Positions 17,701 through 64,000 of a DNA stretch of 64,000 nucleotides are shown one piece after another. Position 1 is the stretch's first letter. Each line of letters begins with the position of its first letter. The position numbers were made by a program, and so were the translations under genes. The DNA comes from Cliona cf. orientalis (lineage: Eukaryota; Porifera; Demospongiae; Clionaida; Clionaidae), in the NCBI GenBank assembly GCA_963930775.1, contig OZ005689.1, positions 5,580,001 to 5,644,000 of the forward strand, in the 5' to 3' direction. The notes beneath the pieces are model-generated. The model saw only the letters and a program-made list of their open reading frames with translations. It did not search any database and was not told the DNA's origin.

Positions 17701-19371
17701 ATGAACGCTGTCTGGCTATTGTGCTTGTGCATTTTTGCTGCTAAGCCAATTGAATCCGCTCATTTCATGGGAGGACTTGTTTACTGGAGACCACTGAATC
17801 CAGCAGCATTTGATGGAAGGGTAAGTCATTTAGGATGCCAAGAGTTAGCTAATAATTATGCCTTGGATACTCACCTATAATGATGTTAAAGTCACTATGT
17901 CAGATTTTTTTTATAATCCTTGGCCAGCCAAAACGTATTGCCTCAGAACTTGCAAAGTGGTTACCCTTGTTCTCATAGAACATTTACAGTCTGAATATTT
18001 AGAGGGCTTGTCCAAAGTCCTTGTGGAAAAATGAGCATCCGATAATGATTATGATGTTAACATTCCCCCCCCCCCCCAACAACTTTCTTAACATCACAGT
18101 GTTTCAACATAGATTCAACATTGAAACTCTGATTCTGTTCCATTTAGCCAGGCTATAGCTACACATTCAATATTCACTTGTATTCTATATACAGTGCTAG
18201 CTATGTCTTCATGGATTCATTGTATACTTGTGCTTCTTTGACAATTTCTAGCTACGTAGTGCTCGACACAGCTGTCACTAAAATGCAAATTTTGACCCTG
18301 CTGGAGGCATATCTAGACCAATTCAACCACAAGAATGCATAATCACAACTATTAAAGGCTAAAGTCTGCTGACAATGCAGTTGTAAAACGTCATGGACCA
18401 AGACCCCTGGTTCCCCCCTAATGTCACAATGACGTTAATTTTTCCGCAAGGACTTTGGATAAGCCCTCTATACACTGCGTTTTTCATATTCCATTCAAAG
18501 CTTGCATTAATTTTTTATGACAGTAGCTACATAGATGGCTACTCCTGTGCATGGTTAGTTATTTTTGTACAGGTGCAAATAATGCAACGTGTTGTTTGGA
18601 GGAGCAATAGGTGCAACTCAACAACCATAGGAACAGCAGTTGTCCAGGAAGCTCCACTACAACGTGAAAGTGGCTGTGTAGTCATTCGTAATGGTTATGG
18701 AATGGCCAACTGTACTGATATCAGTGTGGCTGACCATTGGAATGCTGGAGAGATAGCATACACCCACGTCTTTAGGAGCTATTCAACAGATTCCTACTTT
18801 GAAGCAGTGTAAGTAGCTACTACAAATATTTTACATGGCAGTGTATATAATAATTATACAGTGGTGATCGTGAAAATGTCTCTTAATTTGTAATCAACAT
18901 AGCCATAGGCACCATCTGAGGGGAAAGTGATATTATAGCTAAATAGGCACCATCTGTGGTGGGAGAGTGGGCCTAGAGGAAGGGAACAACTTTCCGAACA
19001 CTAATCATCCTCAATCACATTTCTATTGTTCACAGTTTTTGAAGAATTACACCAATTTAAATTACGCTTAATGTTATAGGTTTGCAAATACTGCTTGGAT
19101 AACATTCTACAATGGTCAAGCACCGAGTCAAAGGTCACCTCACCTATAGACAGGACACTGGCTTAGTCAACAGCCCACCAGTGGTGAACGTACCGCCACT
19201 GATTCGAATACAGTATGGATGCAGCCACACCATCAAAATACCAGGTACTAGCCCGGAGCTGTCAAACTATGTAATTAAGTATAATAGGTTCACAAGGTCT
19301 CTGATTCTGACTATAATGATAATGATATTATATGTGAGTGGATCGCAGCTGGTAGAATAATGATATTGGTG

Positions 19372-19626
19372 GCTGCATGCATAATAAAGTCCTTGGTTTA
19401 GGATTGGTTGTGAATGGCAAACATTTATGATCAATTGCTACTTCTACATAGTGTTTAATTCTAAATTTGAAAGTGAGATTGACATAATTTAGGCTTTCAC
19501 AAGCATGGTCAATCATTATTAGCTAATTTTTTTGTTATTTCAGCTAGCATTGATTTAAGCAGTAACTGTTACAATGTTTGCCATTCACAACCAATCCTAA
19601 ACCAAGGACTTTATTATGCATGCAGC
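19372..19626. mobile_element. Foldback MITE with 54-bp arms in A intron 3
   Basis: The left arm (19372-19425) begins GCTGCATGCATAATAAAGTC and includes CCTTGGTTTAGGATTGG; the right arm (19573-19626) is its reverse complement with no mismatch seen. The 147-bp interior is AT-rich and non-coding. Confidence 0.85.
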
Positions 19627-20076
19627 ATACCCAGTGGATTTATCAACCCTGATACAATTAAAATAGTTAGTGCATGCATTAATATCGATACTGAAAATAT
19701 ACAAACCAACTTATTTTGCTATACGCTCATTACATGCAGTGCTTAAACTTAATTTTGCAATTGCATGTATTGAGTAGAGCTAAATGGTTTATCTTTCAAT
19801 ATGCATGCAGTTGAGGATGCTGATGGTGATCCTATACGTTGCAGATGGGCTGAGAGTTACCTTAACGAGTGTGGAGGGGTCTGTAGGAACATCCCGGCAG
19901 ATCTTAATGGAAGAGATGTACGTTTTAGATTCTAGTTATCACAAATACTGTGATTTGATTGGTTGGAAACAAGGATTCTAAGTTACCTAGAACCCCTCTA
20001 CTTAGAAAGTTAGATCTTTATAGGCAACAACATAGCTACAAGAAGTTACTAAGCAACAGCATGCTAGAGTCTAAAC

Positions 20077-20217
20077 AAGTTAGATACTTCAGTCAATGGG
20101 ATCTACAGTCTTTAGAATACTTCAGACACTTATAGAACCCTCAGGCTTCGCCTTCGTGATTTTATATCAGTGTCTTTCTAAATCCTGTAGATCCCTTGGC
20201 TTCAGTATCTAACTTAT
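20077..20217. repeat. Long imperfect hairpin in A intron 4
   Basis: Arms AAGTTAGATACTTCAG...GGGATCTACAG and CTGTAGATCCC...CTTCAGTATCTAACTT pair over about 45 bp. The loop contains CTCAGGCTTCGCCTTCG. The left flank (ACAAATACTGTGATTTGATT) resembles the border of the hairpin elements at 29.1 and 48.7 kb. Confidence 0.6.
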
Positions 20218-22145
20218 AATAATATGTATAGCTAATATATCGAGCAATTTCTAACCTCGTTCCCCATTGCGCGTGCACAGCTTTTAAACTTAACTGCATG
20301 TTGACAATAACATTGAAAATACTAGAAAGCCTGGGGACAAGGCTAGCAGTCTAGATATTATCTCTTTATCCCTCTAATAGTGTGAAATACAGTACGTGGC
20401 CTCTAATCTCACTGGTGACTATGCAGTGGCAATACAGATTGAAGATTTCATGTCTCCAACGGACATTGATGCTTTAAGTAGCGTACCGCTTCAATTCATT
20501 GTGCGTGTTCAGGATATTTTCTCTAATCCACCTTGCAACAGTCAACCAGAGTTCGTTGGTACTACTCCACAGGATGGGGCCTGTATTGGTGTACCATTTA
20601 ATACGTCTTGGAATGCTAGAATCATTGCAAGGGTGTCGAACACTTCCAGAGCCATTGCCATCACTGATTTTGTCACAGGTTCTCCATTCGGGTTAATGAA
20701 AAGTAATTTGGTTTCTGTAAATCCAGGGGAGTGGCAGGTGAATGTCACATGGACACCAAACGAGTCTCAATATGGACTCAATATCTTCTGTTATGCCGCA
20801 CTTGACAACTTAGGGTATGATGTAGCTATTGAAGTAGTCCTAAGTGTATCTTGTGAAGTTAGAACTCCAATAGTAATGTCATAATTATAACTCTACTATC
20901 ATGTTTGTGTATGTGTGTGTCAAAATAATTTTATCATTCTCTCCAGCTTGCAATCCCCCCATAGATGTGTAACTTTACTGGCCGGTGGTAAGGGAAAATA
21001 CAGAAGCATGTTAACATGCACGATGTAAGTAACACAGCACCCTATTGTACTTACCACTCTCTTTATGCAGTGGAGCCACCAATGGTAGCTAGTTCCTGGT
21101 TTTATGTCACCCCAAGGCAAAACCATTTCAAACGGAGGACTTTGGTCAATGTCAGTTCAATTTGACGAGCAGGTAACAAAGATAATGATCTCTCTAGAGC
21201 TGATACTTGAAATACTAACGATACACAGTTCATAAGGCCAACAAAGGATGCCTTTATCAGGATATTTGGTGAAAAGGGGGAAGAGGTATTTTCAATCAAT
21301 GTTAAGACATCAGCTGCTGTTACCTATCCAAGTGATACGTTGGACCATACACTGAAGTTCAACATAAACGGCTATGAACTTCCTTTAGATCAACCACTTT
21401 ACATACTACTTGATCCAGGTGAGCATTAATTGTGATTGAGGGGTAGCTGTTGACTGACTCCAGTTGGTACGTATACGGTGCATGGTTGCTGATCATAATC
21501 GACAATCCAGGACTAAGACTCCAAGAGTAAAATGGGTACATGACTAGTCACTCCTTTCACTCATTCCTATTCTAGGGAAATACCACAGGTACAGTAACCA
21601 TTGACATTGCCCATAATAAAATTCCTATTATCCACCACCTCTCCTGTCTAGTCACGTGCAGGAGGGGCTGGTGCACAAAACTATCTCCTCCCCTACATGC
21701 GGAGCCACCTGTACATGCATAGATAATATAAAATTAAATAGTGCATATAGTGGGTTCAACAACCAGTATGATCTTTTTTATTTATTTTTCCTGTACAGGA
21801 GTTGCTGTGGGTACTGAATTCTGCCACACCGAGTCACTTCCAATAACAGATCCAACTCTTTGGACATTGATAATTGTCAAGCACAATGTCATTGATCCCC
21901 AGACTGAGTACACTTCCATCGCGATTACCACAAGCTGCACGGTGCTTGCTTTCATCCTTGGGACCACCTGCGGGCTAGTGATTGGGTGCTGTTGCTACCT
22001 TAAAAGGAAAAGGAAGGTAGAGCAACGTGAAACAAGTGCCGTCTATGATGAGGTCATGGATCATGATAGTGGTCAGGTGAAGATGCCCCACTCTCAGATG
22101 GAACTCAGTACTAATAGGAATGTTGCGTACAGCAGACAGACTTAA

Positions 22146-22565: not shown

Positions 22566-25500
22566 ATGGCTATGTGGTTGCCAGTGGTAGCTGTGTGTGT
22601 TTGGTCGCTTGGAAGTTATGTTACGCCGGCTGGTTGCAGTCATTTCATGGGAGGAATCATTCACTGGAGACCACTGGATCCAGCAGCTTTTGATGGAAGA
22701 GTGAGATCAGTCATAAGCTTACCTATACTAGCTAGCTGGCTAAAGTATAGAGCATCTAAAGTCAAGTGCTATATAGCTCCATGTATAAAGCATTGTTTCA
22801 ATTTGACCATAGATTATATTATTTCCCTCCTAATCTATGATTTGACTATTATTAATTTTGTGTCCATTGTATAGGTACAAATAACTCATCACATTACTCA
22901 CAAAAGCACTGCCTGTAATCTGGCAACAATCAATACAGCCACCCTCAGTGTGGGGCGATTACAGTGTCAAAGTGGCTGCAGTGGAAATATTGGAGCCTCT
23001 ACCGTAAACTGCACTGATTTTGGCATGCTTGATGGATGGAGTACTGGAGAGCAAACATTCACTTACAACTTTGATGTCACACAGTCCTACTTTGAACTCT
23101 TGTAAATTATAAGCATGGGTTAATAAAACCATATCGAGTCTACCACTATACAAATATAGTATTATAGTCTCTTGCTAAGTAGCTACTAGCATAATGTTAT
23201 TAATTTTGTTAACATTATTAATCTATTCAGATTTGCAGGTGGTGCCTGGATATCTCTTGTCACTAGTAGTGGTGGCAGATGGGAGCTCCAAGTGAGGGGT
23301 AATCTGACCTATAGAGAGGACACTGGTTCAGTCAACAGCTCACCAGTTGTGAACATACCTCCACTGATTAGAATACAGCAGGGATGCAGCAAGACCATCA
23401 AAGTATCAGGTACACTCATTATCGATGCATGATAATAATAGCCTATAGTCTTACATTAGGGATTTCAATTTGAAGGTGAATGTTTATGATAATAGCACAA
23501 CTAATTCATCGTATCATTCATTATGTACAGAAATTGTTATAGATAAAAAAACATGTTTTTCTTAAAATAACAGTTGGGGATGCTGACGGTGACCATGTAC
23601 GTTGCAGATGGGCTGAGAACTCCCTCGGGGAATGTGGAGGGGTTTGCAGAAGCTTTCCAGTAGCTCTTAAAGGTAGACAGGTAGGTTGTACTACTGTTGC
23701 TATAATAACATTAAGTTCCATATTAAGATAATAATGTAATCTATCCCTCACCACCACAGTGTGAAATACAGTACAATGGCTCAAGTTTAGCACCTGGTGA
23801 CTACGCAGTTGCACTGCAAGTCGAAGATTTTTCCTCTCCGACAGATACTATCGCTTTAAGTAGTGTGCCTGTTCAATTTGTTGTACATGTTGAGGCAATT
23901 CCCTCTAGTCCGTGCGCTGATCAACCACGGTTTATTGGCCCCACTCCATTTGATGGAGCCTGTATTAGTGTGCCCTTTAACACATTTTGGAATGCGACGA
24001 TTATCGCAAGAGTATCAGACAGTGCTACAGCCACATCCATCCGTGAAATTGTTACAGCTTCTCCACTGGGGTTGAGAAAATCTGAAATAGTTCGATCTTC
24101 TTGTTATTACCTAGCTAGGGGGGTGTGGCAAGTGAACATCTTGTGGACACCTCTTGAGTCTCGATTTGGACCCAATATATTTTGCTTTGCTGCACTGGAT
24201 AATAATGGGTACGTGACCTGATTTAAATTATGCATGCATGCACAATTGTGTACCACAGTAATAAGTGATTTATTGTTAGTTTATAATCTGATTAAAGATG
24301 TGTAACTTTATTCGTTGGTGGTAAGCATTAATATTATGATGTTCTAGTTTTGTCATCATAAATATTCTTCATACAGTGAGTGCTGTAGTAGATCTAATGC
24401 CACCGATGATAGTTCCAGATTCAATGTCACCTACGGGTGAAATTCTTACAAATCAAGGTCTTTGGTCTGTTCAATTCAACAAAAAGGTATATATAGGAAA
24501 TGGCTGCACCAGTATCATGTATACAAGATCTTCATAATCTTGAATATTACTAAGTCTTATTGCCATGTTTCTATAGTTCACCAGACCAACAAGGGACTCA
24601 TTTATCAGGATATTTGGTCAAGAAGAAGACGAGATATTTCTTTCAATTAATGCTAAAACATCGTCAGCTGTTACCTACCCCGGACCCAATGACACTTTTG
24701 GCCGTACCCTCACATTCAATATAAACAGCTATCAGCTTCCCTTCAATCAGACATTCTATGTACTATTTGATGCAGGTAATTTGATAGTGAAGTATAATAT
24801 TATTATATATGCACGTATTATAACGTTGTACACGCTTGAAGGTTATGTGCATAACGCTTAGCTAATTTGTTTGTGATAGGCTATAATAACAACAGTTACT
24901 GATGTTTACTTTAGCAATAAGAAATTGTAGGCTATATTGCCAGCATTACCAATAATGTCGGGCATACGGATTAGTATAATAACAAAGGTCACAGATAGAA
25001 GGACAATGTTATAATAGCTACTAGCTATAGGCCATGCACAAACTGAATCTAACCCACATATTCCCACGTGTCCATGTGACACTGTATGTGTATGACGTGT
25101 TGCTTGATTATGCATGTGCATGTATGCAGGTGTTGCTGTTGGTACTCAATCTGACTTATTCTGTCATGCTGAATCACCTCCATTGACAGATCCAAATCTC
25201 TGGACATTTGTGTTTAGAAACACACAAGGGCAGAGTAATGCTGGGAAAAATGAGTTAAATATTTTACTCATTGCCACCGTCTGCACTGCAATACTTACTT
25301 TCATCGTGGGAGTCATCTCTGGTCTGATAGCTTATCACTGTATTTCTGCATTATTTAAGAGGAAAGCTAATCTTGGGCGACAAAGTGCAGCTTCATTGAA
25401 TATCGAACAAAGTGGTAGCTTAAATAGAATTCACTATAAGAAATATGAGAATATCGAGGTGGAAGCAAGTGATGCCATAGTCTATGATGAGGTTACCCCT

Positions 25501-25572
25501 CGGGCTTCTAGGCCTGGAATGCCTGATGTGCAGTTGAAACTCAGTGACAATGTTGCATATGGACAGGTTTGA
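22566..25572 (+). pseudogene. Array receptor B, in-frame stops in micro-exon 6
   Basis: Exons: 22566-22700, 22875-23101, 23231-23409, 23574-23680, 23760-24208, 24280-24320, 24377-24486, 24577-24775, 25130-25572. Exons 1-5 are open and well formed (signal peptide MAMWLPVVAVCVWSLG, then SHFMGG..HWRP; exon 4 EC-type GDADGDHVRCRWAE). The 41-nt exon 6 reads TTA TAA TCT GAT TAA where C has TTA CAA TCT GAT CAA, so two CAA codons have become stops. Exons 7-9 downstream remain open, with TM and a tail carrying VYDEV and NVAYGQV. As written, translation would end at about residue 367, giving a secreted ectodomain without TM. Skipping exon 6 would shift the frame. It may be a recent pseudogene or a gene for a soluble form. 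Confidence 0.75.
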
Positions 25573-27939: not shown

Positions 27940-30900
27940 ATGGCTATGTGGTTGCCAGTGGTAGCTGTGTGTGTTTGGTCGCTTGGAAGTTATGTTACGC
28001 CGATTGATTGCAGTCATTTCATGGGAGGAATCATTCACTGGAGACCAGTGGATCCAGCAGCTTTTGATGGAAGAGTGAGATCAGGCGAAAATATTATTAG
28101 CTATGTGGCCATAGTGCTAGCTCCACAGTGTACTATCAAATTTGACTCATGATTATTTGTGTCCATTGCTATAGGTACAAATAACTCATCGTGTCACTAT
28201 CAATCATACTGTCTGTAATCCGATGACGATCAATACAGCAGTCCTCAGGCTGGCCCCGGGGCAATTAATACAGTGTGAAAGTGGCTGCAATGGAACTTTT
28301 GGAACCACTACCTTAACTTGCACTGATTTTGGCATGGTTGACGGATGGAGTACTGGAGAGCAAGCATTAATTTACGATTTCGGTGTTGCACAGTCCTACT
28401 TCGAACTTTTGTAAGCCTCAGTCTATAGCTACCATGCATTGGTACATAATACCACATGATAACCACTACTATGCTTTTGCTAGTAGCTACTCTGAGTGTA
28501 CTTATAGGTTTGTAGGTGCATGCTGACTGGATATCACTCTTCATGGAAGTTCAAGATTAGTTAGCGCCAACTGGGAGTTCAGACTAGAGTGAGGGGTAAT
28601 CTGACCTAGCTACATGCATTATGTCTAGCTATACTGTATGCCCACACCCTGCATGGTACTTTTAACGGTAGCCAGTGATAATAGTCAATACTGGCAGTTA
28701 GCTAACAGCATTCTATAGCTAATATTATTATAATACATGTAGATTCGCAAGTAGTGGCTGGATATTACTTGTCACTGGTATAAATCATCCATGGAAATTC
28801 CGAGTGAGGGGTAATCTGACCTACAGGGAGGACACTGGCTTAGTCAACAGCCCACCAGTGGTGAACATACCTCCACTGATTCAAATACAGCAGGGATGCA
28901 ACCACACCATCAAAGTATCAGGTAGCTGCACTCATTATCGCAATATCACTCAATGCACCATCAGCTAAGAGTATCTCACAGTTTACAGCCTATAGTCTTA
29001 TACTAGGGATTTCAATGTGATACCATAATATTATAGCACAACTATCATTCATTACATGGTATTACAGTAGTGTACATGTGTAAGTATCACAACATGCAAT
29101 AATAATTATTAGATCCTACTTGTAACAAATACAGTGATCTGACTGAGCATCTATCCTTCATAAAATATCTTGATTTTGTAAGCCCCATAAAAACTTTGTA
29201 AGCTCCTTAAAAAACCTGGTAAATTTTGTTTGCCTATGGCTATAGTTTGTTGTTAGGCAATTATTTATTTGCAAAGCCTATAGGCATTGTTGCTGGATCT
29301 AAATTAGTTAATAGACACTGTTTAGTAGGTTTCTACGTGATTTAGAAGATCTCAGGGCTCAGTAGAACCCTCACTTTGCTCAGGATTCTACACAGAGCCC
29401 TTAATTCTGTCTCCTAAATCACGTAGAAACCTCCTAAACAGTGTCTAACTATTATTTAGCAAACAATCACATCCCTTAAAAAAATAATATCGACAATGTC
29501 ATGCATGCATGTTTTTCTTAACAGTTGGGGATGCTGACAGTGACCATGTACGTTGCAGATGGGCTGAGAGCTCCCTTGATGAGTGTGGAGGGGTCTGCAG
29601 ACACTTTCCGGCAACTCTTAAAGGTAGAGAGGTAAGCATGCAAGTTATACTAGAGTTGCTATACGTATAATCTACCCCTCACCACAATAGTGTGAAATAC
29701 AATACATTGGCTCAAGTTTAGCACCTGGTGACTACGCAGTTGCACTGCAAGTCGAAGATTTTTCTTCTCCAACAGATACTGTCCCTTTAAGTAGTGTGCC
29801 TGTACAGTTCGTTGTACGTGTACAGGCAATTCCCTCTAGTCCGTGCGCTGATCAACCACAGTTTATTGGCCCCACTCCATTTGATGAAGCCTGTATTAAT
29901 GTGCCCTTGAGCACATCTTGGAATGCGACGATTGTCGCAAGAGTGTCCAACAGTGCTATGGCCACTTCAATCTGTGAAATTGTTACAATTTCTCCACTGG
30001 GGGTGAGAAAATCTGAATCAGAACTATTTCGATCTGACTACTACCCAGGGGGGTGGCAAGTGAACATCACTTGGACACCTCTTGAGTCTCAATTCGGACC
30101 ACATATCTTTTGCTTTGCTGCACTGGATGATGCTGGGTATGTGACCAGATTTAACGTACAATAGATCTATACAGAATGAACTTATATTATTATTTATATA
30201 GTTTACAATCTGATCAAAGATGTGTAACATTATTCGTTGGCAGTAAGCATTACTCTATAGCTAGAATGATTTCGTTGTTATAGCTAAATATTTTTGTGCA
30301 GTGAGTACAGTATTAGAGCCACCAATGATAGTTGCAGATTCAATGTCACCTATGGGTGAAATCCTTTCAAATCAAGGTCTTTGGTCTGTTCAATTCAACA
30401 AAAAGGTATAGTAATAATTGCATTCTTATAATATTATAGTTGCATGGTATATTATGATAAGAGCTGTTCATAATAATATTATTGCCATGCTTTGTATAGT
30501 TCACTAGACCAACAAGGGACTTGTTTATCAAGATATTTGATCAAGAAGAAGATGAGATGTTACTTTCAATCAATGCGAAAACATCGTCAGCTGTTACCTA
30601 CCCCGGACCCAGTGACACTTGCGGCCGTACTTTGATATTCAACATAAATATCTGCCAGCTTCCCTTCAATCAGACATTTTATATATTGTTTGATCCAGGT
30701 AATTTCAATGCATCATAGTGAAGTATAATATTAATTATTATGTGCACATACCTGGTCCAGGCTTTATAATATTTTGTTTGTGATCCTAGGCAATTGTTAG
30801 CTACTATGTATGATTGTGTGTGTATGCATGTATATACATGTATAATTATTACACATGACATTGTGTGCACATTATACTATTTTATGCAGGTGTTGCTGTT

Positions 30901-31293
30901 GGTACTGACTCATTCTGCCATACTGAGTCACCTCCACTGACGGATCCAACTCTATGGACATTTGCATTTGTAGAGCAGAGAGATACGCGAGGGCAGAGTG
31001 ATACTCATAAACAAGAGAGTAATATTATACTCATTACCACGGTCTGCACAGTACTTGCTTTCATCATTGGAGTCATCTCTGGTCTGATAATTTATCACTG
31101 TGTTTCTGTGTTACTCAAGAGGAAAGCTGAACGACAAAGTGCGGCCTCATTGAACATCAAGCAAAGTGATAACTTAAACTATGTGAATACTGAGGCGGAA
31201 GCAAATGAACTCTATGACGAGATTGTCCCTATACCTGGAATGCCCTATGTGCAGATGAGTCTCGATGACAATGTTGCATATGGACAGTATTGA
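27940..31293 (+). CDS. Array receptor C, intact, 616 aa
   Basis: Exons: 27940-28074, 28175-28410, 28743-28921, 29525-29631, 29691-30136, 30202-30242, 30302-30405, 30500-30698, 30890-31293; all phases agree. Signal peptide about 1-26, then SHFMGGIIHWRP. The Cys-rich region (exons 2-5) runs to about 368 and includes VRCRWAE..ECGGVC near 195-210. The 41-nt exon 6 encodes LQSDQRCVTLFVG. Exons 7-9 (about 382-508) form an Ig-like module with MSP.GEILSNQGLWSVQF, RDLFIKIF, FYILFD-type strand and TDPTLWTF, a pattern of SbsA/Big_5-type Ig domains. TM about 528-556, then KRK. The tail has LYDEI (591) and NVAYGQY at the very end. Exon 3 is more like that of G than of B or D, and a decayed exon 3 lies in intron 2. 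Ligand unknown. Confidence 0.85.
28507..28606 (+). pseudogene. Decayed extra exon 3 in intron 2 of receptor C
   Basis: After TATAG the sequence reads GTTTGTAGGTGC..., then GACTGGATATCACT, then TGGGAGTTCAGACTAGAGTG and GGGGTAATCTGACCTA. These are in the order of a normal exon 3 but with stops, insertions and loss of the second half. The functional-looking exon 3 follows at 28743. Confidence 0.75.
29106..29447. mobile_element. Hairpin-ended repeat element, copy 1
   Basis: It begins AGATCCTACTTGTAACAAAT and ends in a 134-bp hairpin (29313-29446) with arms AGACACTGTTTAGTAGG and CCTCCTAAACAGTGTCT. A copy in reverse orientation lies at 48709-49015, so the whole is a dispersed unit. It sits in C intron 3. 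Confidence 0.7.
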
Positions 31294-33948: not shown

Positions 33949-33998
33949 TATGAAATGCCCGCAGCGAGTGCCTTTGTGGGCGACAGTCCATGCTTTGT

Positions 33999-34440: not shown

Positions 34441-34503
34441 ATTCATTCCTATACTACACGTATAGGAAAATAGTTTGCTGTTGTCCATATTATTAGTATA
34501 GGT

Positions 34504-47731: not shown

Positions 47732-47846
47732 ACCAGCAATAATTACACCCTCGATAACTGAAAGTATATACATACATGTCTCGACTCATTGTAGCTAGTA
47801 TTAATATGGAATAGAATTAGTATTAATTTTTGTAGTTCTTAATAAT

Positions 47847-48583
47847 TGTGTGTGCGTTTGTGTTCATTTGGAATGTGTTACTAGTTGACTGTACTCATTT
47901 CATGGGAGGAACTAGCATGCATGGGAGAATTATGGGAATCTAGCTAGTATGATAGATCAGATTGTAGTGCAGTCTATAATGATGCATAAATTTAAATACA
48001 GGGTGTCTATTGTAAATAAATTTCTTTGCTATGCAGTGCAGACTTTGATCTATCTCTCGGTGGATACATTTGCCAATTATTAAGACTTAGTAGTACACTG
48101 CATGGCTACATTAAACTACTAGTTAGACCTAGAGCAACCTCATAAGAAAGTTGGCTGACCTTTTAAAGTACTCTTGAGGACATCAATTAATTTAAAATTG
48201 ATGTCCTCAAGAGTACTTAAAAGGACAGCCAATTTTTTTATCGTGGATGGAGGAAGCTGTATGCAAATGGATGTTGTAGCTTATAGCTACCTTCATTGAA
48301 TGTTTAGACCAACAAAAAACACAATAGCAAGCATCTGATTCAGTGATTTCCTATTCTAGGTCATCATAGCTTGGGTAAGAACCTCAGGTGAAGGTGATGC
48401 TTAGACTCTCCTGTCGAGTGGAGGTCGGCTGACATGTTGAATGGATGAAATGGAACCATTAAATTTTGAAACTTTCATACTACTGCACTGATTTCAGTGT
48501 AACCGATACCTGGAGTGCTAGAGAGCGAACTTAATATTATTATACGTACAACTTCACTGGACCTTCCTTTGAAGCTGTGCAAC
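47847..48583 (+). pseudogene. Receptor relic after E: broken exons 1 and 2
   Basis: 47847-47930 matches exon 1 (TGTGTTCATTTGGAATGTGT, TTGACTGTACTCATTTCATG) without start codon and is cut after GGAGGAAC. 48359-48583 matches exon 2 (ATAGCTTGGGTAAGAACCTC, TACTACTGCACTGATTTC, TGGAGTGCTAGAGAGCGAAC) with deletions and frameshifts; it is closest to exon 2 of F. The same pair follows F at 61581-62135. Confidence 0.8.
48153..48230. repeat. 78-bp hairpin
   Basis: GGCTGACCTTTTAAAGTACT...GAGGACATCAATT pairs with AATTGATGTCCTC...AGTACTTAAAAGGACAGCC. Only the right arm persists in the duplicated block after F (about 61778-61815). Confidence 0.85.
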
Positions 48584-48708
48584 TATTTAAAGTTCAAACA
48601 CAAAAATTACTAGAGCACGTACCCCGCACACATGTACATGTGAATGATATTATGGCAATACATAACTGCAAAGGTAGCATATAAATTAAAAGTTTATAAA
48701 TAATAGTT

Positions 48709-50471: not shown

Positions 50472-53400
50472 ATGGCAGAAACTTTTGCTTATGCTGTGTG
50501 GTTCTTGTGTGTGTGTTCACTTGGAAGTGTATTTCCAGTTGACTGTGCTCATTTCATGGGAGGAATCATTCGATGGAGGCCAGTCAATCCAGCAGCATTT
50601 GATGGAACAGTGAGAATTGGGCACTCAGAGCAGATCGAATCATATTCACAGTGCACGCTATAAAAGTCCCCTGCTTCTATCCATGGTTATATACCTGCAT
50701 AGCTGGGCTAACCCGGCTTGCTAATAAAAAAGAAACAAATCAAGAGTATAGTTAGCACACTACTAGCTAGCTGATAGCAAATCTAGGACTCCGTCTACTC
50801 TCGGTTTATAGATTATTTATCTCTTGTTGCAGGTGCAGATAACTCATCGTATTGCTTGGAGAAGGGATACAAGTCAAGGTGGTACATGTACACAGACAAC
50901 AATAGATGCTCAGACTCTCCTGCCGAGTGGAGGTCGGCTGACATGTCAGAGTGGATGTAGTGGAACTGTCGGACACTTTTCATACTACTGCACTGACTTC
51001 AGTGTAACTGATAATTGGAGTACTGGAGAACGAACATATATGTACAATTTCACTGGATCTTCATTTGAAGCTGCGTAAATTCAGTCCTGTTCATGCATTA
51101 TGCCTAGTTATACTGCATGTCTATACACTCTGCATGATACTTTTAACGGTAGCAAGCTTAAGTGGTTCATAACATAACAGTCCATACTGGCAGTTAACAG
51201 CATTAGCTATAATAATTATTTTATAATACATGTAGATTTGCAAGTGGTGACTGGATATTACTTGTCACTGGTATAAATCAACAATGGGAATTCCGAGTGA
51301 GGGGTAATCTGACCTACAGGGAGGACACTGGCTTAGTCAACAGCCCACCAGTGGTGAACATACCTCCACTGATTCGAATACAGCAGGGATGCAACCACAC
51401 CATCAAAATACCTGGTAGCTATAATTATTATGTTTATAGTACTCAATAATAATATTAATATTCAGCTGCACTGCATGCAGTCTATAATAATGCTGGTTCT
51501 ATAGTACAATTATACATGGTTACTGATTGATATTCCATATATAAATGCTGTAAAGATAAACCAAGTGTTACAGTTATTGCAATCTTAGCCGTCACAATAT
51601 CCAACCCCAAAATTAATGTCAGGATTCATGATTCAGCTATAGAGTTACTATTTCAAACAATGTTTACTAGCTATAATTAAAATAAACAGTTGAGGATGCT
51701 GATGGTGACCCTATACGGTGCAGATGGGCTGAAACCTCCCTTAATGAGTGTGCAGATGTTTGTAGAGGCTTTCCAGCAAGTCTTAACGGAAGAGATGTGC
51801 GTTGCATTACTATAGTGTATAATCTATCCACTTCACTGAACCCTCTTACTTGATTCGTGCAGTGTGAAATACAATACACTGGTTCCAGTCTATCAACTGG
51901 TGACTATGCAGTAGCACTACAGGTTGAAGATTTCATATGTTCAACTGCCACTACACCATTGAGCAGTGTACCTGTTCAGTTTGTTGTACGTGTCCGATCA
52001 TTTCCCTCTAGTTCATGCTCTAGTAAACCAGAGTTAGTTGGAAACACTCCATTGAATGGATCCTATTTTGAAGTGCTCATCAATACATCTTGGAACACGA
52101 CAATCGTAGCAAGGGTAGCGGGCGGTTCCAATGCTACATCCATCACTGAGTTTGTTACAGCTTCCCCACTTGGGATGAGAAAGTCTAACTTAAGTCAGTG
52201 TGAAAATCCAAGGGAGAGGCAGGTGAACATCACATGGACACCAGCTGAATATCAATTTGGACCCAATATCTTTTGTTTTACTGCAATGGATGATATAGGG
52301 TAAATTGCACTTAAGCTATGATTATTATTGATAATGCATGTGTAACCTTCTATAGATTGCAATCAACTCAAAGATGTATAGTATTGCTAGTGGCTTGCAG
52401 TAAGTACAATCAACATTTTTTATTAGGAGCATGACATAATATTATGAATTTCTTTGCTTCCTGACAGAACCACCAACTATAGTTCCAGGTTCTATGTCAC
52501 CCGTGGGCGAAATCTTTTCCAACCAAAGTCATTGGTCAATGTCAATTGAATTCGATAAGCAGGTAAACTCAGAGCAAGTATATATATAATGTTGAGAGTT
52601 CTGCAAGAGCTCGTGCAATTATTAATACTTAATGTTAGGCAATAATTATTATTATGCTTGCATACACATGCAGTTCACTAGACCTACTAGAAATACGCAC
52701 ATCAGGGTGTTTGGTGAAGGAGGAGATGAGGTGGTTACTATCAATGCTAGAACATCAGCAGCTGTTAGTTATCCCAGCGATGCTTTGGGCTGTACACTGA
52801 TATTTGATGTAAACATCTGCCAGCTTCTGATAAGTCACACATTTTATATACTTCTTGATGCAGGTGAATTATGTGTATATCTATACCTCAATTATTGTGT
52901 TAATAATATTATTATTATGCATGCATGCATGCATGTGTGTGTGTGTCTCTGAGGATATCAGTACATGTTTGCATGGGTAGTGTTGTGCAAATCCTGTTTA
53001 TTTCAAAAAAATAACGTTTATTATTGTTATAGTGAAATGTTATCAAACCTACCCTGCTCAAAGCTGTAAATATAATAATATTATATACTCGCAATTCAGA
53101 ATGCATGACCATGCCGATATACTGTAGCTACTCTGTACGTATGCATTTGTAGAGTATAATAAATATTGTGTGCGTATGCATTTGTATAACTATCATTCTG
53201 CAGGTGTTGCTGTTGGTACTGACTCATTCTGCCATTCTGAGTCACCTCCATTGACAGATCCAACGCTGTGGACATTTACGACAGCTAAGCACATTGACAC
53301 ATATACCACTGATTTCACAACTGTTGAGTACACTACCATGCACACCACTGATACTGAAATGACTGAGCACACTGATCCTGTAAGTACCAAGCACACTGAG

Positions 53401-53799
53401 ACGCTTGAGTTTGAGATTCCTGAGTACACTGATACCAATGGCCAAATGAGTACCACTGCACCCAATATTAACACTGAGCCTAAGATAGAAAAAAGTGAAG
53501 TAACCTCGATGGTGTGCTTAGCAAACTCTATCGTTATCACAGTCTGCACATTACTAAGTCTTACTTTCTTATTCGGAGTCATCTGTGGCCTGATAGCTGA
53601 ATGCTGCGTTTGTGCACTACTCAAAAGGAAAGCTAAGCAACAAAGCAAGGTGTCATTGAGGCAGATATCAGAGAGAAATGACCACACAGATCATTATGAG
53701 ATATCGATGGGTGAAAGTGGGGCTGAGCTCGAGACTAGTGCTGATATCTACGATGAAATCACTCCTGACTGCAAGCCTGGGATAGGCAGCACTCGTTGA
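50472..53799 (+). CDS. Array receptor G, intact, 675 aa, Thr-rich stalk
   Basis: Nine exons: 50472-50609, 50833-51074, 51236-51414, 51690-51796, 51863-52299, 52356-52399, 52468-52562, 52674-52863, 53204-53799. Signal peptide (MAETFAYAVWFLCVC), AHFMGGIIRWRP and the family ectodomain; micro-exon 6 is 44 nt (RCIVLLVAC). The SbsA-like Ig module is about 382-502 (THIRVFGE, FYILLDA, TDPTLWTF). Unlike its neighbours it has a Thr/Glu/His-rich stalk of about 70 residues (505-577), probably O-glycosylated, before the TM (about 582-611, Cys-rich end). The tail is long, with HYEISM and IYDEI but no AYGxV motif. It has an N-terminal half of the E-H type and a C-terminal architecture of the A-D type (no second Ig or sushi). 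Confidence 0.85.
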
Positions 53800-54776: not shown

Positions 54777-57700
54777 ATGGCAGCAACGTTTTTGTGGTTC
54801 TTGTGTGTGTGTTCACTTGGAAATGTGTTACCAGTTGACTCTTCTCATTTCATGGGAGGAATTATTCGATGGAGGCCAGTCAATGCAGAAGCATTTGATG
54901 GAAGAGTGAGAATTGGGCTCTCAGAGCAGATCTGGAACCACACTATATTCATAGTGCACGCTATGAAAGTCCCTTGCTTCTATCCGTGGTCATATACCTG
55001 CATAGCTAGGCTAATCCGGCTTGCTAAAAAAAAACAACAAATCATGCACACTAGCTACTAGCTATAAACTAATAGTGAATCTAGGACTCTATATCTACTC
55101 TTGGTTTAGATTATTTGATAACTATTTCTTGTTGCAGATACAGATAACTCATCGTATTGCTTGGATAAGAACCTCAAGTGAAGGTGGTACATGTACACAG
55201 GCAACAATAGATGCTCAGACTCTCCTGCCGAGTGGAGGTCAGCTGACATGTCAGAGTGGATGTAGTGGAACTGTCGGAAATTTTTCATACTACTGCACTG
55301 ACTTCAGTGTAACTGATAACTGGAGTGCTGGAGAACGAACGTATACATACAACTTCATTGGACAGGCTTCCTTTGAAGCTGTGTAAGTTTTACTAGTACA
55401 ATTATCTAGGGCATCGGCTAGTTTGAGCCAAAATTTAAACTTTTTTAGCATAATATTTTTGAATGTTTTATGCAAAATTCCATTATGATTCTCTATCAGT
55501 GTGAATGATTTTTTTTTTTTTTTTTTCCGTTTGATAAAATTTAGTGCAGAGGCAACTTTTTGGGGGGAGGGAGGGGAGCTTATAGATTAAGGTGCATGTG
55601 TTCATGATCATTCCCACTTTCAGTGGTGAGCTACACTGATTCTTTTTAATTATAACATTACCAATGATTCAAGTTATTCAATAACTAACTGGTGGAATAA
55701 TTTTTATCACTTTTAGACAAGTATGAATAGTATGCTGGCATGTATCTCTAAATCCGTTGGAGGGGTGTGGCTTATAAGGTCCCTATTACAATGTCATACT
55801 AGTACATGTGTTAACCAATAGCTTACAATTACAATGCCATACTCTTGAATTTTCAGATTTACAAGTGATGCTTGGATATCTCTCATCATAGGCAGCAGTT
55901 CATGGGAGTTCCGAGTCAGGGGTAGTCTGAGCTACAGAAGTGACACTGGTTTAGTTAACAGCTCACCAGTGGTGAACGTACCTCCTCTAATTCGCTTACA
56001 GTATGGATGCAATCGAACCATTAAAATACCAAGTAAGACTACATTTTGTACAGTCACAATCGTGATGACCTTAATTTACATTTGATTCTGTGTGTATCAC
56101 TCATGCAGAAGCATTAATTTAATGTACTCTTGCTCAGTGGCATCCCCAGTGGGTTCATTCGCATGCATCCATTCCATACATCAATGTACCCTTAGCTAGT
56201 GTTTAGCTACAAGTGGAACAAGGCCCATCATGTGACAGTTCACTGGCCCATTAGTCTGATAGATGATTCAGCTTAAGTTTGTGTGCCCATCCATGAACTT
56301 AGCTATATAATACACATTGTATTATAGTTGCTTCATACTTACTAACAGTTGAGGATGCTGATGGTGACCATGTACGTTGCAGATGGGCTGAGAGCTCCCG
56401 CAGTGAATGTGGAGGTGTTTGTAGAGGCTTCCCAGCAAGTCTTGATGAAGCTGCTGTATGTCACTGTTTTGTATGATAATATTACAGCAAGACTTAGTAA
56501 CACAGTATCTGATTATCTATTCAATCACAGTGTGAATTAGAATATCAAGCCACTGGTCAATTGCGAACTGGTAAATACGCAGTGGCACTACAAATTGAAG
56601 ATTTTGTATCGCCAACGGGCACTACACCCTTGAGCAGTGTACCTGTTCAATTTGTCATTCATGTATTCACACCCTCATCCAATCAGTTGTGCTCTACCCA
56701 ACCAGAGCTAGTTAGTACAACTCCATTGGATGGGTCGTGCATTGGGGTGCCCTTCTCTTCATCTTGGAGTACAGCTATTACAGCACGGCTACCAGGCAAC
56801 TCCACAGCTACATCAATCGTCGATATTGTCACAACATCTCCACTTGGGATGAGATTATCAGAGCTAGTTCCATCTAATCCAAGAGAGTGGCAAATGATTA
56901 TCACGTGGACGCCACAACCATCTCATTCAGGACCCAACATCTTCTGCTACTATGCACTCGATAATACAGGGTACTACATTAAATATCAATGATGCCATTG
57001 CAGTATTTTGGTAGAGTAGGAAGAGTATGATAATAATAATAATATATTATACATCTGATTGTTACAGTAGTGGTATGGATTATTATTTTATATACTTCAG
57101 CCAATCGTCTTCTCAAAGCTGCATAACCTTTCTAGGAGGCGGTTAGCACATAAAATCAATGCAGAAATTTTGGAACATGTTCAATTTTATATCTGCAGTA
57201 ACACCACCAACATTACTGCCTGCGACAATGTCACCTATGGGTGAAATCTTTTCTAATCACTCCACTTGGTCTGTTCAAGTTAATAAGCAGGTAATGTGAT
57301 TTCGACTGATATCACGGTCACTACATGTATAGGCAAAAGTCAATGCAAGAGAAAGACTTGGAGAGAGAGAGAGAAAGGGAAGGATGGAAATAGTATAGAC
57401 AGAGTAGGAGGGGAGATGTGGGCTTGAGCGAGAGAGAGGGCAGGATTTGAAATATTTATATCTCATGATTCATGCAGTTTATTAGACCACTACGAGACAG
57501 ATTCATCAGGATATTTGATGAAGGAGGAGAAATGATCATCTCCATCAATGCTGCAACATCTTCAGATGTCATTTATCCTAGCAATACCACTCTGGGACGA
57601 ACTCTGATATTCAGTATAAATTATTACTTTCCTGAAAAACGAAAATTTTACATATTACTTGATCAAGGTAAGTGAACATTCAAGCTATAGCTAACTGGAG

Positions 57701-60700
57701 TACTCAGCATTATTATCATGCATGGCCTGTGTATTATAGGCATTATTGCTGGGACCGAATTATGCAATGCTGAATCACCAGCTCTGAAAGACCCAACTGT
57801 GTGGACATTTATAATAGGCAAGATTTTAGTATGTAAATCATTTAATTTACTGTAGTTTCTGTTTTGCTACGTACACGTAGCTGATGTGACTCCACCTGAA
57901 GTTCAGCTCAGAGCACCAGTTATGTCAAATGAAGGTTTATCCATTAGTTGGTATTTCAGTGAAAATGCCTCTGCCATTTGTGAATTGCATTCTCCTTCAA
58001 TGCTCAATGTCACGACAATCCCTTGTTTAAAAAACACCGTTTTGCTCTCATATTCCCTGGAAGGCTACAGTTTATCCATTCAGGGTACAGATATTGAAGG
58101 CAATGTGGCTGAGCCTGTCCAACTTACGTGGAGCATAGGTAAGACAGTCATGCACTCAAATAATATTATTACTATTAATTTTATGCACAATCATGCAAGT
58201 ATATAGCATCTGTATAATAATTGACACACTTATGCATCCATGCATGTACGCATCAGACAATAGAGTATATACACATGCACACACATTGTGGATATTATTA
58301 TTTTGGGACTTATTTTGAACTGTTTATCTATACTAAGGAAATCCATTGACATGCATAAAAGCCCTTTTTAGTACAAATAAAGGCCCCAAATGGGAAGAGG
58401 GTATGTAGCTAACAGTGATTTACAGTAACACTGTGGTCTACACATATTATTGAGAAATTTTGTTTCAATTTTAATAATGGCAGGTTCTTAGTTAGCTATG
58501 ATTGCTCTCTTCTCCTTTAGCTAGTAAGCCCTTCGAATTCTGTGGTAGAAAAGCATTCGTATACCATTTTTATGATCAGTAGCGGCTCTGGATCCACTAA
58601 GGTATATTTTTGGGGTTCCATGCAGGAAACTGGTTAGCCTGAATTCCCATCAGGCTAGCTACAAGATGACAGTGCACATACTATAGTGTGACAACCTTTA
58701 CAATGGCTATCAATATGACCATAAAAGGAAAATTTAATGCTTAGCTACAGAACTGAGAAGAGTAAATGTCGTAACATAATATTATTATTATGGTAATGCT
58801 TTATAACTGTGCCACTGGGAATGAGTATGCATCTACAGCATAGACTAGAATAGCTAGATGTTATTAAAATGCATCATAGCACAATAATAATTAATACAAG
58901 GGACGTGTTGACATTGTGACCCATAGATCTTCGTTGTCCTCTGCACAACTGACTAGTAGACACCTTCGCCAGGGAAGAGCTTGTGCTGGTTCACTAGTAG
59001 TTCAAATGTGTATGAGAAGGCCTCAAAACACTCCTATTATGGTATTGCTCATGGACATACATTATATATAGCTATGCTACTCCGATGTAGACAGTCTCAG
59101 TCACTATAGGCCAGCTAGTGAAGTGCCTGCATGGTAGTCATACGTAGGAACTTGCGCTACATGTACATGTTACTTCCTGTGATTTTAATTTGTAGTAAAC
59201 AGCTACAAGGAATGTATGTATATGTATGTGTATCCATGGATTCATTTGTACCCATTCCAAACATCAGTACAGATTTTTTAACATGATGTTTATCTTATTT
59301 ATGTAGCTATTTGTACATACAGCAGATGGCTATACCACATATATAAACACTAAATTTGTACAGGATTACTGCTAGCTGACTTAGTATTTCAATGTGGAAT
59401 TATTAAACTTGAAATTTCAATCCAAAGATTATCAAACTGACAATATCATGTTCTTTTTCAGCTACCATCACCTGTGGTAACATAAAACTGACCGACATTG
59501 AATTAGAGCTACACATCGTAGATAACTCCATAATATCATCACTGGTTTATCACTGTGCTGAGAGCATTTCTGTACACCAAACCATCACGTCAGTGTGTTC
59601 CAGTGGTGGAGATTCACTGTGGAATCCTGATCCTGCCAGTCATGGATGTGCTAACATCAGCAGCACTGGAGCTGCAGGTATGGTGAGGTAGACTGAACTA
59701 TGCATAGCTATAGCTACATCCGCATACACTGTGAGGCTTTTATATAATATATGTAATATGGGAGGGCCTGGAACATCTGATTCAACAAGGCTATTAATTA
59801 AAGTCATCTGTACCCTCTTCCTCTGTAATAATGTATGCAGTATCATGCTTTGAGCAAGCAGTATGTCATTGATTGATTATTGATGTTGGCATAAGGTTGG
59901 CAAATAGCTGCAATAATAAGTATAATAATATTATATTATCTGAAGGAAAAAAATTTAGTGCCCCCTCCTCCCCCATGCATTGTGTTTTGGGATATCACTG
60001 AGGTGAGGTATTACGTGATTTCATCTAGTGTTCTTAAATAATTATCTTATTACTGATCACTTGCACCACAGCGCAAATGGATGCACTTGAGTGCAGAACC
60101 CTCGCCGCTACATGCATGCATGAGTCATGCGCATGTATAGCGTGGCTCACTGTGTATCACTAGATGAAAATATGGATTTCGTGCAGGTATATAGGAAATG
60201 TGTAGAATAGAGCAAATTTTCTGCTTATTTCATTTAAGTTAGCAAAAGTTCTGCCCTCTCCTCCGACAAGTATATGTAGAAAATGTCATGTTTTGATAAA
60301 TACTACAGAAGGAAATCACAATTTTGGTCTAGTGTATATAGCTATGCTGGTCACGTTTCAGTACCAGGAATATTGAACTACAATGTAACATACCCTGCAC
60401 CTGAAACATGGTTATGGTACTGTTCAAGTCTCTTCAGAGTCAGTGCATATGATGATCTAGGAGTAGGGGAAAGGCACCTGGCTATGTCATTACACAAACG
60501 GAAAGCTCAGTCTGTGATAACCTAAACTCAATTATGCACTTGAGAACCACTGCATTCCTGTTTACACTTTCACTGCACTGACAACTGACCAGAAAGGCAC
60601 GGAATTGTTATCAGTCATGTAGCTGAGGTAAGAGCCATGTAAACATAGACGGGCAACAGCTGCACACTACTACACCATTGGGCAGGACTCACTTTTCCTT

Positions 60701-61461
60701 TGTGTCCGGTATACCTCGAATGCATACTTTCTATCGGACGACCCTTACTATCAGTAATTTTAGCATATATAGGAGGGTTGCAACGGACGGCACGAACAAA
60801 AATCACTAAACGATCGGTGCAGTAATCCATCCACCTATGCTTTGCGGCGAGGGTTAAAAATAACACTCCCCTCTCCCACTAGCTACCTCTTTCTCTATCT
60901 CTCTCTCCTTTCCCTTTTTTTCTTTTTCTCTCTTCCTTTTTTGGGGGGGGGGGGGGGGGGGGGGAACCTGTTGGATGTTTTGGATGGGGAGAACCTTCCC
61001 CCCCCCCCCCTACTGGATGAAATCTTGACACTCCTCTGGACCCATTTTTGCTAATGATTATAAATTATTGCTAAATAGCAGTGTAGTTTCTGGTAAAGAT
61101 CGCTTCCTGAATGGAACAACTCTAGCTAAAGGCTTGTCAATGACATAACAATGTTATTTATTATGCAGAAAAGAAAGATAATGGGGACATCATAATTGGA
61201 ATCAGCACTGTGCTTGTCTTCATCGTGGGAGTTTTCTGTGGATTGCTATCCTACCACTGCATTCGTTGGCTACTGACAAGGAGGGCTAGCACAATCAGGC
61301 AGTTGCAAGAAACTCAACCTTCAAGGATGCATGCACAAAAGGAAGAAGCTGAGCTCTATGAAGAAGTCAACACAGCTGCACGCTACAAGGCACCCTATCC
61401 AACACCAAATACTCACGTTGAACTTGAAGAAAATGTAGCATATGGAAACGTACAGTATTAA
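54777..61461 (+). CDS. Array receptor F, intact, 754 aa, close duplicate of E
   Basis: Twelve exons: 54777-54905, 55138-55382, 55857-56032, 56349-56455, 56531-56970, 57101-57141, 57199-57290, 57478-57667, 57740-57817, 57881-58138, 59462-59677, 61169-61461; phases agree. Domain order as in E: signal peptide, SHFMGG..RWRP, Cys-rich ectodomain, SbsA-like Ig module, TPP-type Ig-like domain (about 500-585), sushi domain (about 586-657), TM (ISTVLVFIVGVFCGLLSYHC), tail with LYEEV and NVAYGNVQY (V-A-Y-G-N-V fits ITIM). From exon 4 on, exons and introns are almost the same as E, including the GC-AG intron after exon 9. Exons 2 and 3 differ more. Introns 10 and 11 have each gained or lost insertions relative to E. 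Confidence 0.85.
60943..61011. repeat. Poly-G and poly-C runs in F intron 11
   Basis: A G run of about 22 bp follows a T/C-rich stretch at 60943-60964. A C run of 11 bp lies near 61000. Confidence 0.8.
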
Positions 61462-61580
61462 ACCAGCAATAATTATACCCTCGATAACTGAAACTGTGCA
61501 TACAAGGTCATGTCATTGTAGCTAGTATTAACATGGAGTAGAATTAGTATTTTTGTACTTCTTAATAATTCATTATAATT

Positions 61581-62135
61581 GCATGTGTGTGTGTTCATTT
61601 GGAATGTGTACTAGTTGACTGTGCTCATTTCATGGGAGGAACTATTCGATGGAGGCCTGTGAATCCAGCAGCATGATGGGAGAATTATGAGAATCTAGCT
61701 AGTTTGATAGATCAGATTGTAGCGCAGTCTATTATAATGATGCATGAAATTAAATACAGGGTGTCTATCAACTAATTTAAAATTGATGTCCTTAAGAGTA
61801 CTTTAAAGGACAGCCAACTTTCAACAATTTTTTGTCGTGGATGGAGGAAGCTGTATGTTGTAGCTTATACCTTCACTGAATGTTTAGACCAACAAAAACA
61901 CAATAGTAAGCATCAGTGATTTCCTCTTCTAGGTCATCATAGCTTGGGTAAGAACCTCAGGTGAAGGGTTTAAACTCTCCTGCCGAGTGGAGGTTAGCTG
62001 ACATGTCGAATGGATGATTTGAAACTTTTCATACTACTGCACTGACTTCGATTCAGTGTAACCGATAACTGGAGTGCTGGAGAGCGAACACATTATTATA
62101 CGTAAAACTTCACTGGACCTTCCTTTGAAGCTGTG
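61581..62135 (+). pseudogene. Receptor relic after F: broken exons 1 and 2
   Basis: 61581-61680 keeps GTGTGTGTTCATTTGG, GACTGTGCTCATTTCATG and CGATGGAGGCCTGTGAATCC of exon 1 but lacks the start and is frameshifted. 61933-62135 keeps exon 2 pieces (ATAGCTTGGGTAAGAACCTC, TACTACTGCACTGACTTC, TGGAGTGCTGGAGAGCGAAC). It matches the relic behind E and shows that the duplicated block included it. Confidence 0.8.
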
Positions 62136-62545
62136 CAACTATTTATTAAAAAAAAAACAAAATTTACTAGAGCACATACCCCACGCACGTGTATATGTGA
62201 ATAATATGTGTCAATACATGGTTACTGCAAGGGTAGTGTAAAAATTAAAAATTTATTAAAATGTCATGAGATCAAGTATTAATTTAGTAGCTAGATAGCT
62301 AGTTATCCTTCAGTGTATGATTGCATGATTGTAAACGGCATGGCTGTCGACCCTTTGCCAGTTTCCTGTTTAATTCTCTTCTATGCATTAATCATAGAAT
62401 GGCCCTTCTGGGCTACCATAATATTCCCAACAAGTTCAATGTGATGCTGTGCCAAAAGCAAATGGATGAGCTATTGACATAGTGAGACCATCACATTTCT
62501 AGTCCCAAACTGTTTGTGTTAAAATTGTGGACTGTGTCAACCATT

Positions 62546-62927
62546 GGGCTATTCCAGATAATAGGCGTACACCCCTATGGAGGAAGAGATTTATGTTCAT
62601 TACCCTAAATACCAATTAAAGTGCAAAAGTAACCATCAAAACTAATCAAGTTGCTCATTTTACCCTATAAAACTAATCAATAATCTCGATTTCACCCTAC
62701 AAAACTAATTGTAATTCCTCCATACCCTGACCAGTTACTCCATCAATACAATTATTCACTGCCATGCCCCCTCAATACTTCATTACTATCTACAATGGTG
62801 CCTACAATACCTCATTAAAATCCTTAAAAATGCCCTCAATACTTCATTAAATCACCATAAATCTTGACCCTACAATACTAATCAACCTTCCTCCATAGGG
62901 GTGTATCCTCATTATCTGGAATAGCCC
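62546..62927. mobile_element. MITE with GGGCTATTCCAGATAAT termini, empty site in paralogues
   Basis: GGGCTATTCCAGATAAT...ACACCCCTATGGAGGAAG is mirrored at the right end. The interior repeats ACTAATCAA and CCCTACAA(A/T)ACT motifs. The equivalent points near 40803 and 49266 read straight from GTGTCAACAATAAA to TTCATAGAC, so this copy was inserted in the H-side spacer only. ATT flanks both ends. Confidence 0.85.
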
Positions 62928-63351
62928 ATTGTTCATAGACTTGCCAAGGCCACTATTTCACCACCGAGCTACGTAGCTTTCTGACTCCATACGCTAACTC
63001 TATCTAAATAGATAATTAGCTGTATACCCAGTCAGTTGTAGCTAGTCTCACATTCAAGTTGAGCATGGTTTGCATGATGGCAAATTTAAGGCCACTCCAG
63101 TTTGATGGGGAAATGGTCGTTAAAACCATGAGTTAAGGTAGCTAGTCACAAATTGAAGCAGTATACTTTTGTATTTGTGTAGCTCAAATTATTATGCAAC
63201 AAGTCTCACTCACCATTTCATACACACTATGATTTGTGGTAAAGGTCGACATGCTCATTGATCATTAGATGGGCGGGGCCACACTTACCATGCCATTGAA
63301 ATTTTCCGGTCATACAATTTTCTGCGAATCATTCAGTGTCAACTGAAAGAA

Positions 63352-64000
63352 ATGGCAGCAACCTTTAGTTATGTTGTGTGGTTCTTGTGTATATGCTCAC
63401 TTGGAAATGTATTCCCAGTTGACTGTGCTCATTTCATGGGAGGAATCATTCGATGGAGGCCAGTGAATCCAGCAGCATTTGATGGAACAGTGAGAATTGG
63501 GCTATGTTTAATACCCTGCAGCTGTCACCAACAAAATTATGATGCTATAATTAAGAATACTTACAGTGCATGCTAAGAAAGTCCCAGGATCAAACTATAT
63601 AACTTCATGCCTATCCATACTGATAACAAATCTTTTTGCAATGCCATGGTAAATAGTCTTATAACTCTTTGCACTTAAGGTTTCAGCAAGTCATGATTTC
63701 AGTGATTGTCTCTTGCCAGTTGCAGGTACAGGTAACTCATCGTGTTGCTTGGAGAAGAAATACAGATGCAGGTGGTAGGTGTACACAGGCAACAATAGAT
63801 GCTCAGACTCTCCTGCAAGGTGAAGGTCAGCTGAGTCGGACATGTCGGAGTGGATGTATAAATGGAACCATTGAAGACTTTTCATACTACTGTACTGACT
63901 TCAGTGTAACTGATAATTGGAGTGCTGGAGAGCGAACATATAAATACAACTTCACTGGGCCTTCACTTGAAGCTGTGTAAGTCTTATAGTCCCATAGAGG
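63352..64000 (+). CDS. Array receptor H, partial, runs off the window
   Basis: Exon 1 (63352-63489) encodes MAATFSYVVWFLCICSLG..., a signal peptide, and AHFMGGIIRWRP. Exon 2 (63726-63976) is open, slightly longer than in E-G, with the family pattern (VTHRVAWRR, CTQATIDAQTLL, CRSGC, YYCTDFSVTDNWSAGE). The promoter block of the E-H class precedes it. Later exons lie beyond the window, so its architecture and integrity are unknown. Confidence 0.8.

Follow-up and report, generated by a model that had tools for sequence, protein, structure and literature searches.

Clusters of membrane receptors with tyrosine-motif tails are known from several invertebrates. The Alr receptors of Hydractinia and the FcoR receptors of Botryllus form clusters that are thought to signal via motifs of the immunoreceptor tyrosine-based inhibitory or activation type (ITIM or ITAM; PMC12065747), and the same source reports that candidate allorecognition proteins are not conserved among sponges, cnidarians and ascidians (PMC12065747). 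In engulfment receptors, NPxY is paired with an ITAM or YxxL, and the ITIM of Draper-II binds Corkscrew (PMC8092387). Here we describe a group of 13 genes, lettered A to M, in the demosponge Cliona cf. orientalis, of which the first eight start within a 64,000-nt stretch of DNA (C1:5580001-5644000; called the window below). Judged from the gene models, these are predicted type I cell-surface receptors that share one exon plan and form a tandem array specific to the lineage. The kind of system is known, and what sets the Cliona array apart is its ectodomain, its host and the exchange of tails between its copies. Neither this receptor family nor ITIM-type receptor arrays in sponges were found described among the titles listed from the open-access literature searched, which was partial.

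The array resembles Alr and FcoR in being an invertebrate cluster of membrane receptors with tyrosine-motif tails. It differs from both in its ectodomain, compared by description only: Alr is described as having V/I-set immunoglobulin (Ig) domains (PMC11999971) and FcoR V-type and C2-type Ig plus sushi domains (PMC12065747), whereas the Cliona models scanned against Pfam (C, E and F) gave no match to the Ig superfamily (IgSF). With MEGF10, Draper and CED-1 the array shares an NxxY-type and a YxxPhi-type motif in the tail; those receptors have EMI/EGF ectodomains, of which the three scanned models show none, and the Cliona tails have NxAY rather than NPxY and no ITAM pair. The Sib proteins of Dictyostelium are similar in the GxxxG of the transmembrane (TM) stretch, in an NxxY-type tail and in a weak Pfam link (Ig_SIBA-E_2nd) that runs via relatives of the Cliona family; unlike them, the Cliona models scanned lack a VWA match and the tails lack NPxY, and the Pfam link lies below the curated cut-off and is absent from the three window models scanned. 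An expansion of SRCR genes is reported in a sponge (PMC10855680). Stretches of SRCR type follow the ectodomain unit in two dispersed Cliona paralogues, on C6 and C8, which resemble such expansions in this respect, whereas the array models C, E and F have no SRCR match.

Gene models in the window came from self-comparison and splice modelling, and the extent of the array from per-exon profiles run over the window and 100 kb downstream, with the window numbering continued (extended coordinates); the genome searched comprised 216.79 Mb in 149 contigs. The profiles placed the 13 genes, together with remnants, at 17701-147630 in extended coordinates (~130 kb), all on the + strand; the bounds of H to M were set automatically and have had less scrutiny than those of A to G, and the first codon of M is uncertain. 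The array features in the window are as follows.

Gene A, 17701..22145, + strand: 9-exon type; the length of exon 3 (19080-19244) breaks the family frame; tail with YDEV and NVAY, no ITIM fit.
Gene B, 22566..25572, + strand: 9-exon type; 623 amino acids (aa) with an alternative exon-6 acceptor at 24298; tail with IVYDEV and NVAYGQV.
Gene C, 27940..31293, + strand: 9-exon type; intact, 616 aa; tail with YDEI and NVAYGQY, no ITIM fit.
Remnant, 34113..35791, + strand: pieces of exon 1 and of the last exon.
Gene D, 37470..40347, + strand: 9-exon type; exon 2 (37700-37922) has a frameshift near 37843; tail with YDKV and NVAYGQV.
Gene E, 41507..47731, + strand: 12-exon type; intact, 762 aa; extra Ig-like-looking exon and 4-Cys exon; tail with YEEV and NIAYGNVQY.
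TM/tail exon of E, 47433..47731, + strand: TM stretch with GILCG (GxxxG), then AELYEEV and ENIAYGNVQY.
Remnant, 47836..48681, + strand: exon 1/2 pieces downstream of E.
Gene F, 50472..53799, + strand: 9-exon type; intact, 675 aa; Thr-rich stalk; tail with YDEI only, no distal NxAY.
Gene G, 54777..61461, + strand: 12-exon type; intact, 754 aa; tail with YEEV and NVAYGNVQY.
Remnant, 61569..62201, + strand: exon 1/2 pieces downstream of G.
Gene H, 63352..64000 in the window (exons 1-2) and to 66688 in extended coordinates (C1:5646688), + strand: TAG in exon 5; tail with YEEI only.

The initial annotation of the window, made from the DNA alone, had proposed eight same-strand genes with common exon phases and a common HFMGG..WRP N terminus. 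Splice models bore this out, and the array extends to 13 genes. The phases run 0,2,1,0,2,1,0,1 in B, C and F, as they do over exons 1 to 8 of E and G. Modelled introns are GT-AG, the exceptions being a single GC-AG intron in E and another in G. A hydrophobic leader (read by eye; the topology is a prediction) and HFMGG...W[RK]P open each array gene, nine of which have 9 exons and four (E, G, L and M) 12. Eight starts are present in the window; A and D are frameshifted, B is open only via the alternative exon-6 acceptor, and E and G have three extra exons. In A exon 3 and D exon 2, bounds placed at AG and GT still leave lengths off the family frame. Beyond these, H has its in-frame stop, and for exon 7 of L the 30 bases examined contain no acceptor; eight of the 13 models (C, E, F, G, I, J, K and M) are intact. 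When exon 5 of C was searched against the genome, it gave 24 matches, namely the 13 array genes, ten at six dispersed loci (on C2, C4, C6, C8, C15 and C18) and a weak one on C10. In a tree without A, D and H, the ten array genes form one clade (support 0.999) that is sister to the paralogues on C2 and C8.

A strongly hydrophobic TM stretch near the C terminus was scored in five window models (B, C, E, F and G) and read by eye in the rest, and GxxxG lies within it in 12 of the 13 genes. The proximal tail motif is Y[DE][DE][VI] in 11 genes and YDKV in D and I; the proposed TM helix and tyrosine tails are supported. We take this motif to resemble Src-family substrate or SH2 sites and hemITAM-like sites. 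A distal N[VI]AY is present in nine tails; the other four genes (F, H, J and K) lack it and show a Thr-rich stalk in its place. Of the eight window genes, four (B, D, E and G) have a cytoplasmic tail that fits the ITIM pattern, and L brings the count for the array to five of 13. To compare the motifs, each tail was shuffled 2000 times, with the ITIM pattern taken as [SIVL]xYxx[ILV] with T also allowed in the first position. As the copies are related and the trials not independent, the resulting figures compare motifs and are not probabilities: the ITIM pattern was seen 5 times against 2.14 expected, and 4.5% of shuffles attained that count; those of N[VI]AY (9 seen, 0.03 expected) and Y[DE][DE][VI] (11 seen, 0.09 expected) were attained in 0 of 2000. 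The data thus do not support the ITIM as the motif that defines the family; the other two are better kept. The C-terminal forms listed in the initial annotation were right for B and D (VAYGQV) and for E (IAYGNV), whereas VAYGNV, assigned to F, sits in G, and F has no such motif.

In an alignment of nine tails (A, B, C, D, E, I, L, M and that of a receptor-like neighbour at 5213-8164, leaving F, G, H, J and K aside), the invariant residues are the proximal Tyr and the L, N, A and Y of LxxNxAY. Because L..N.AY is invariant here, the distal motif is better called NxxY-type than ITIM, although some copies satisfy both. Motifs of the NxxY type are read by phosphotyrosine-binding (PTB) domains. None of the NxxY occurrences in the array tails is an NPxY.

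The Cys-rich ectodomain that had been proposed as common to the family was confirmed. Nine array models share 13 invariant Cys columns, of which one lies in the leader; 12 of the 13 are also kept in the relatives P0001, P0003 and P0015. Models C, E and F, the three scanned, gave no Pfam match above the cut-off, and SRCR, VWA, EMI and EGF domains were likewise without a match in them. Sequence searches found 12 proteins related to the ectodomain (best E 2e-103), and 18 with a profile, from molluscs (Gigantopelta, Ostrea), a brittle star (Amphiura) and rotifers (Rotaria). These unnamed proteins hold a homologous ectodomain unit; the C-terminal part is HYR-like in Gigantopelta and of ZP/CUB type in Amphiura, and no Cliona-type tail was seen by eye in the relatives' sequences examined. 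The ectodomain seems to represent a family of animal domains for which Pfam has no separate entry.

The proposed Ig-like module finds no support as IgSF. In C, E and F it has no IgSF match in Pfam, and the corresponding stretch of the relatives gives sub-threshold matches to the bacterial family Big_5; an IgSF-specific assignment is therefore not supported. Big_13 matches above the cut-off lie further along P0003 and P0006, where exon 10 of E and G would align. The extra exons of E and G, labelled by eye as Ig and sushi, gave no Pfam match at E up to 10, and that assignment was not retained as proven. Nor was a homologue of solved structure found by sequence, the search giving three chance-level matches only. 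Elsewhere in the genome, a 2222-aa open frame on C15 (C15:4581000-4588746; L023, L053 and L054) carries an array-type ectodomain unit with Big_13 above and EGF-like matches below the cut-off. No TM stretch was scored in it, and it may be a very large member of the family that is secreted into the matrix.

Exon-by-exon comparison pointed to exchange between copies. Exons 1-4 of gene I are 98-100% identical to those of H, and 96-100% to those of H or K, whereas its exons 8-9 are 92-94% identical to those of D and only 62-73% to those of H and K. Whole-gene BLASTN located the change from one affinity to the other at 73019-73095 (extended coordinates). By these alignments, gene I is a mosaic in which an H/K-type ectodomain is joined to a D-type tail. 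Exon 3 of F is closest to that of C (94%), although F is closest to K or J in seven of nine exons. Together, the patterns of I and F indicate that ectodomains and tails have been exchanged between copies. The ratio of nonsynonymous to synonymous substitution rates (dN/dS) between paralogues, computed by the method of Nei and Gojobori (NG86) without A exon 3, D exon 2 and L exon 7, was 0.41, 0.45, 0.43, 0.49, 0.35, 0.31, 0.32 and 0.32 for exons 1 to 8. It was 0.63 for the TM stretch and 0.51 for the tail (12 of 13 genes, B being absent from both sets). Values above 1 occurred in 14 of 546 ectodomain exon comparisons. Diversifying selection was thus not shown between paralogues, the ectodomain exons lying at 0.31-0.49 and not above 1.

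The genome also holds candidate signalling partners. On C8, SH2, SH2 and protein tyrosine phosphatase (PTP) matches follow one another in this order within 2 kb (9936138-9938107), where the reading frames have the look of an SHP-type phosphatase. Two further SH2/PTP groups lie on C4; they were identified by domain matches, frames having been read on C8 only. PTB (PID) domains gave six matches. In the same searches, PTP-domain matches numbered at least 186 genome-wide (150 of 373 candidates being scored), many of them on C15, where their density at ~7.2-8.3 Mb suggests a large PTP expansion. Clusters of SH2 matches on C7 (1.89-2.14 Mb) and C19 (5.40-5.52 Mb) suggest tandem expansions of SH2 proteins.

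These features allow us to propose, with about even confidence, that the array genes encode modular receptors for recognition or engulfment that signal through phosphotyrosine in their tails. The ligands of their ectodomains would sit on other cells, on microbes or in the matrix; a Src-type kinase would phosphorylate the acidic proximal motif, on which SH2 proteins would dock, and the distal NxAY would dock a PTB or SH2 protein. Similar ectodomains with and without the distal motif would then give different outputs, as in paired-receptor families. The tail logic is closest to that of engulfment receptors, with NPxY plus YxxL or ITAM, and an ITIM in one Draper isoform. Several observations weigh against this proposal. 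The distal motif is NxAY and not NPxY, and is missing in four of 13 genes; five of 13 copies (A, B, D, H and L) have a defect or splice problem; the six PTB matches include none shown to be an adaptor of the CED-6/GULP type; and the array is known from one assembly only. In addition, the ectodomain dN/dS shows constraint and no sign of diversifying selection, although alleles could still differ.

Were the copies true ITIM inhibitory receptors, the distal motif would recruit SHP-type phosphatases and raise the response threshold. Position -2 is V or I in all nine distal motifs, an SHP-type arrangement was found on C8, and such motifs are reported for Hydractinia Alr and Botryllus FcoR (PMC12065747). 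Yet the five fitting tails barely exceed the 2.1 expected from shuffling, and position +3 is occupied by Y in C and M, by A in I and by Q in A. The invariant positions are instead N at -3 and A at -1, and the distal motif is lacking from F, H, J and K. We regard this account as unlikely. We also think it improbable that the array tunes adhesion rather than recognition, through receptors like integrin beta or Dictyostelium Sib in which GxxxG and NxxY would couple ligand to a talin/PTB-like domain and the cytoskeleton. Sib proteins carry NPXY and GxxxG, and SibA binds talin (PMC9453864). In the array GxxxG occurs in 12 of 13 genes and NxAY in nine, but the motif lacks the Pro of NPxY and four copies lack it altogether. 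Pfam Ig_SIBA-E_2nd (PF24908) appears in three of 16 relatives at E up to 1 (best 4.8e-4, in P0005), but these matches fall below the Pfam cut-off and are absent from window models C, E and F, which also have no VWA match. A genome scan for the Sib domain matched nowhere, as did its control, and was therefore uninformative.

Damage to the copies would also fit a turning-over array without a coherent recognition role, in which duplicates of an SRCR-type ancestor accumulate and several are broken. The frameshifts of A and D, the stop in H, the splice problems of B and L and the several remnants agree with it, as does a paralogue dN/dS that is not above 1. Because eight models are intact, the ectodomain dN/dS of ~0.3-0.5 indicates constraint and the tail motifs are kept far above the shuffled expectation, we regard such decay as very unlikely. 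A narrower form of the recognition proposal, which we advance only tentatively and with low confidence, is that the sponge uses the array for allorecognition or to recognize microbes or symbionts. The non-IgSF ectodomain would be of possibly pre-animal ancestry, and the output of the locus would be tuned by recombining near-identical ectodomains with tails that have or lack the distal NxAY/ITIM-like motif. If this were true, phosphotyrosine paired-receptor recognition would be carried to the base of animals. With a single mappable array, exchanged tails and SHP-type, SH2 and PTB matches in one genome, the locus is a directly testable candidate, and it raises the question whether tyrosine-tail receptor arrays are older than cnidarians.

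Upstream of the array, the window holds the receptor-like gene whose tail entered the alignment above, together with other neighbours.

Receptor-like neighbour, 5213..8164, + strand: different ectodomain with one sushi domain (Pfam), TM, tail VYQEV...NSAYGHI.

The tail layout of this neighbour is nearly that of the array genes, despite its different ectodomain, and a broken copy of its tail lies on C11 (L058). At 3376-4701 on the minus strand are open reading frames that look Ig/FN3-like by eye, without Pfam support. The minus strand also encodes, at 8818-11262, a multi-TM-looking single-frame protein of 814 aa with no Pfam family above the cut-off and 15 homologues, the closest 95% identical. 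At 15229-15603, on the same strand, lies a GDP-fucose protein O-fucosyltransferase exon (PF10250), with further likely exons, read by eye, to 14229. Within the array, intron 4 of gene A contains a repeat of ~220 bases (20000-20226) that resembles a miniature inverted-repeat transposable element. It recurs in at least 39 further places (39 scored among 241 candidates) on many contigs and both strands, its copies being mostly 85-91% identical.

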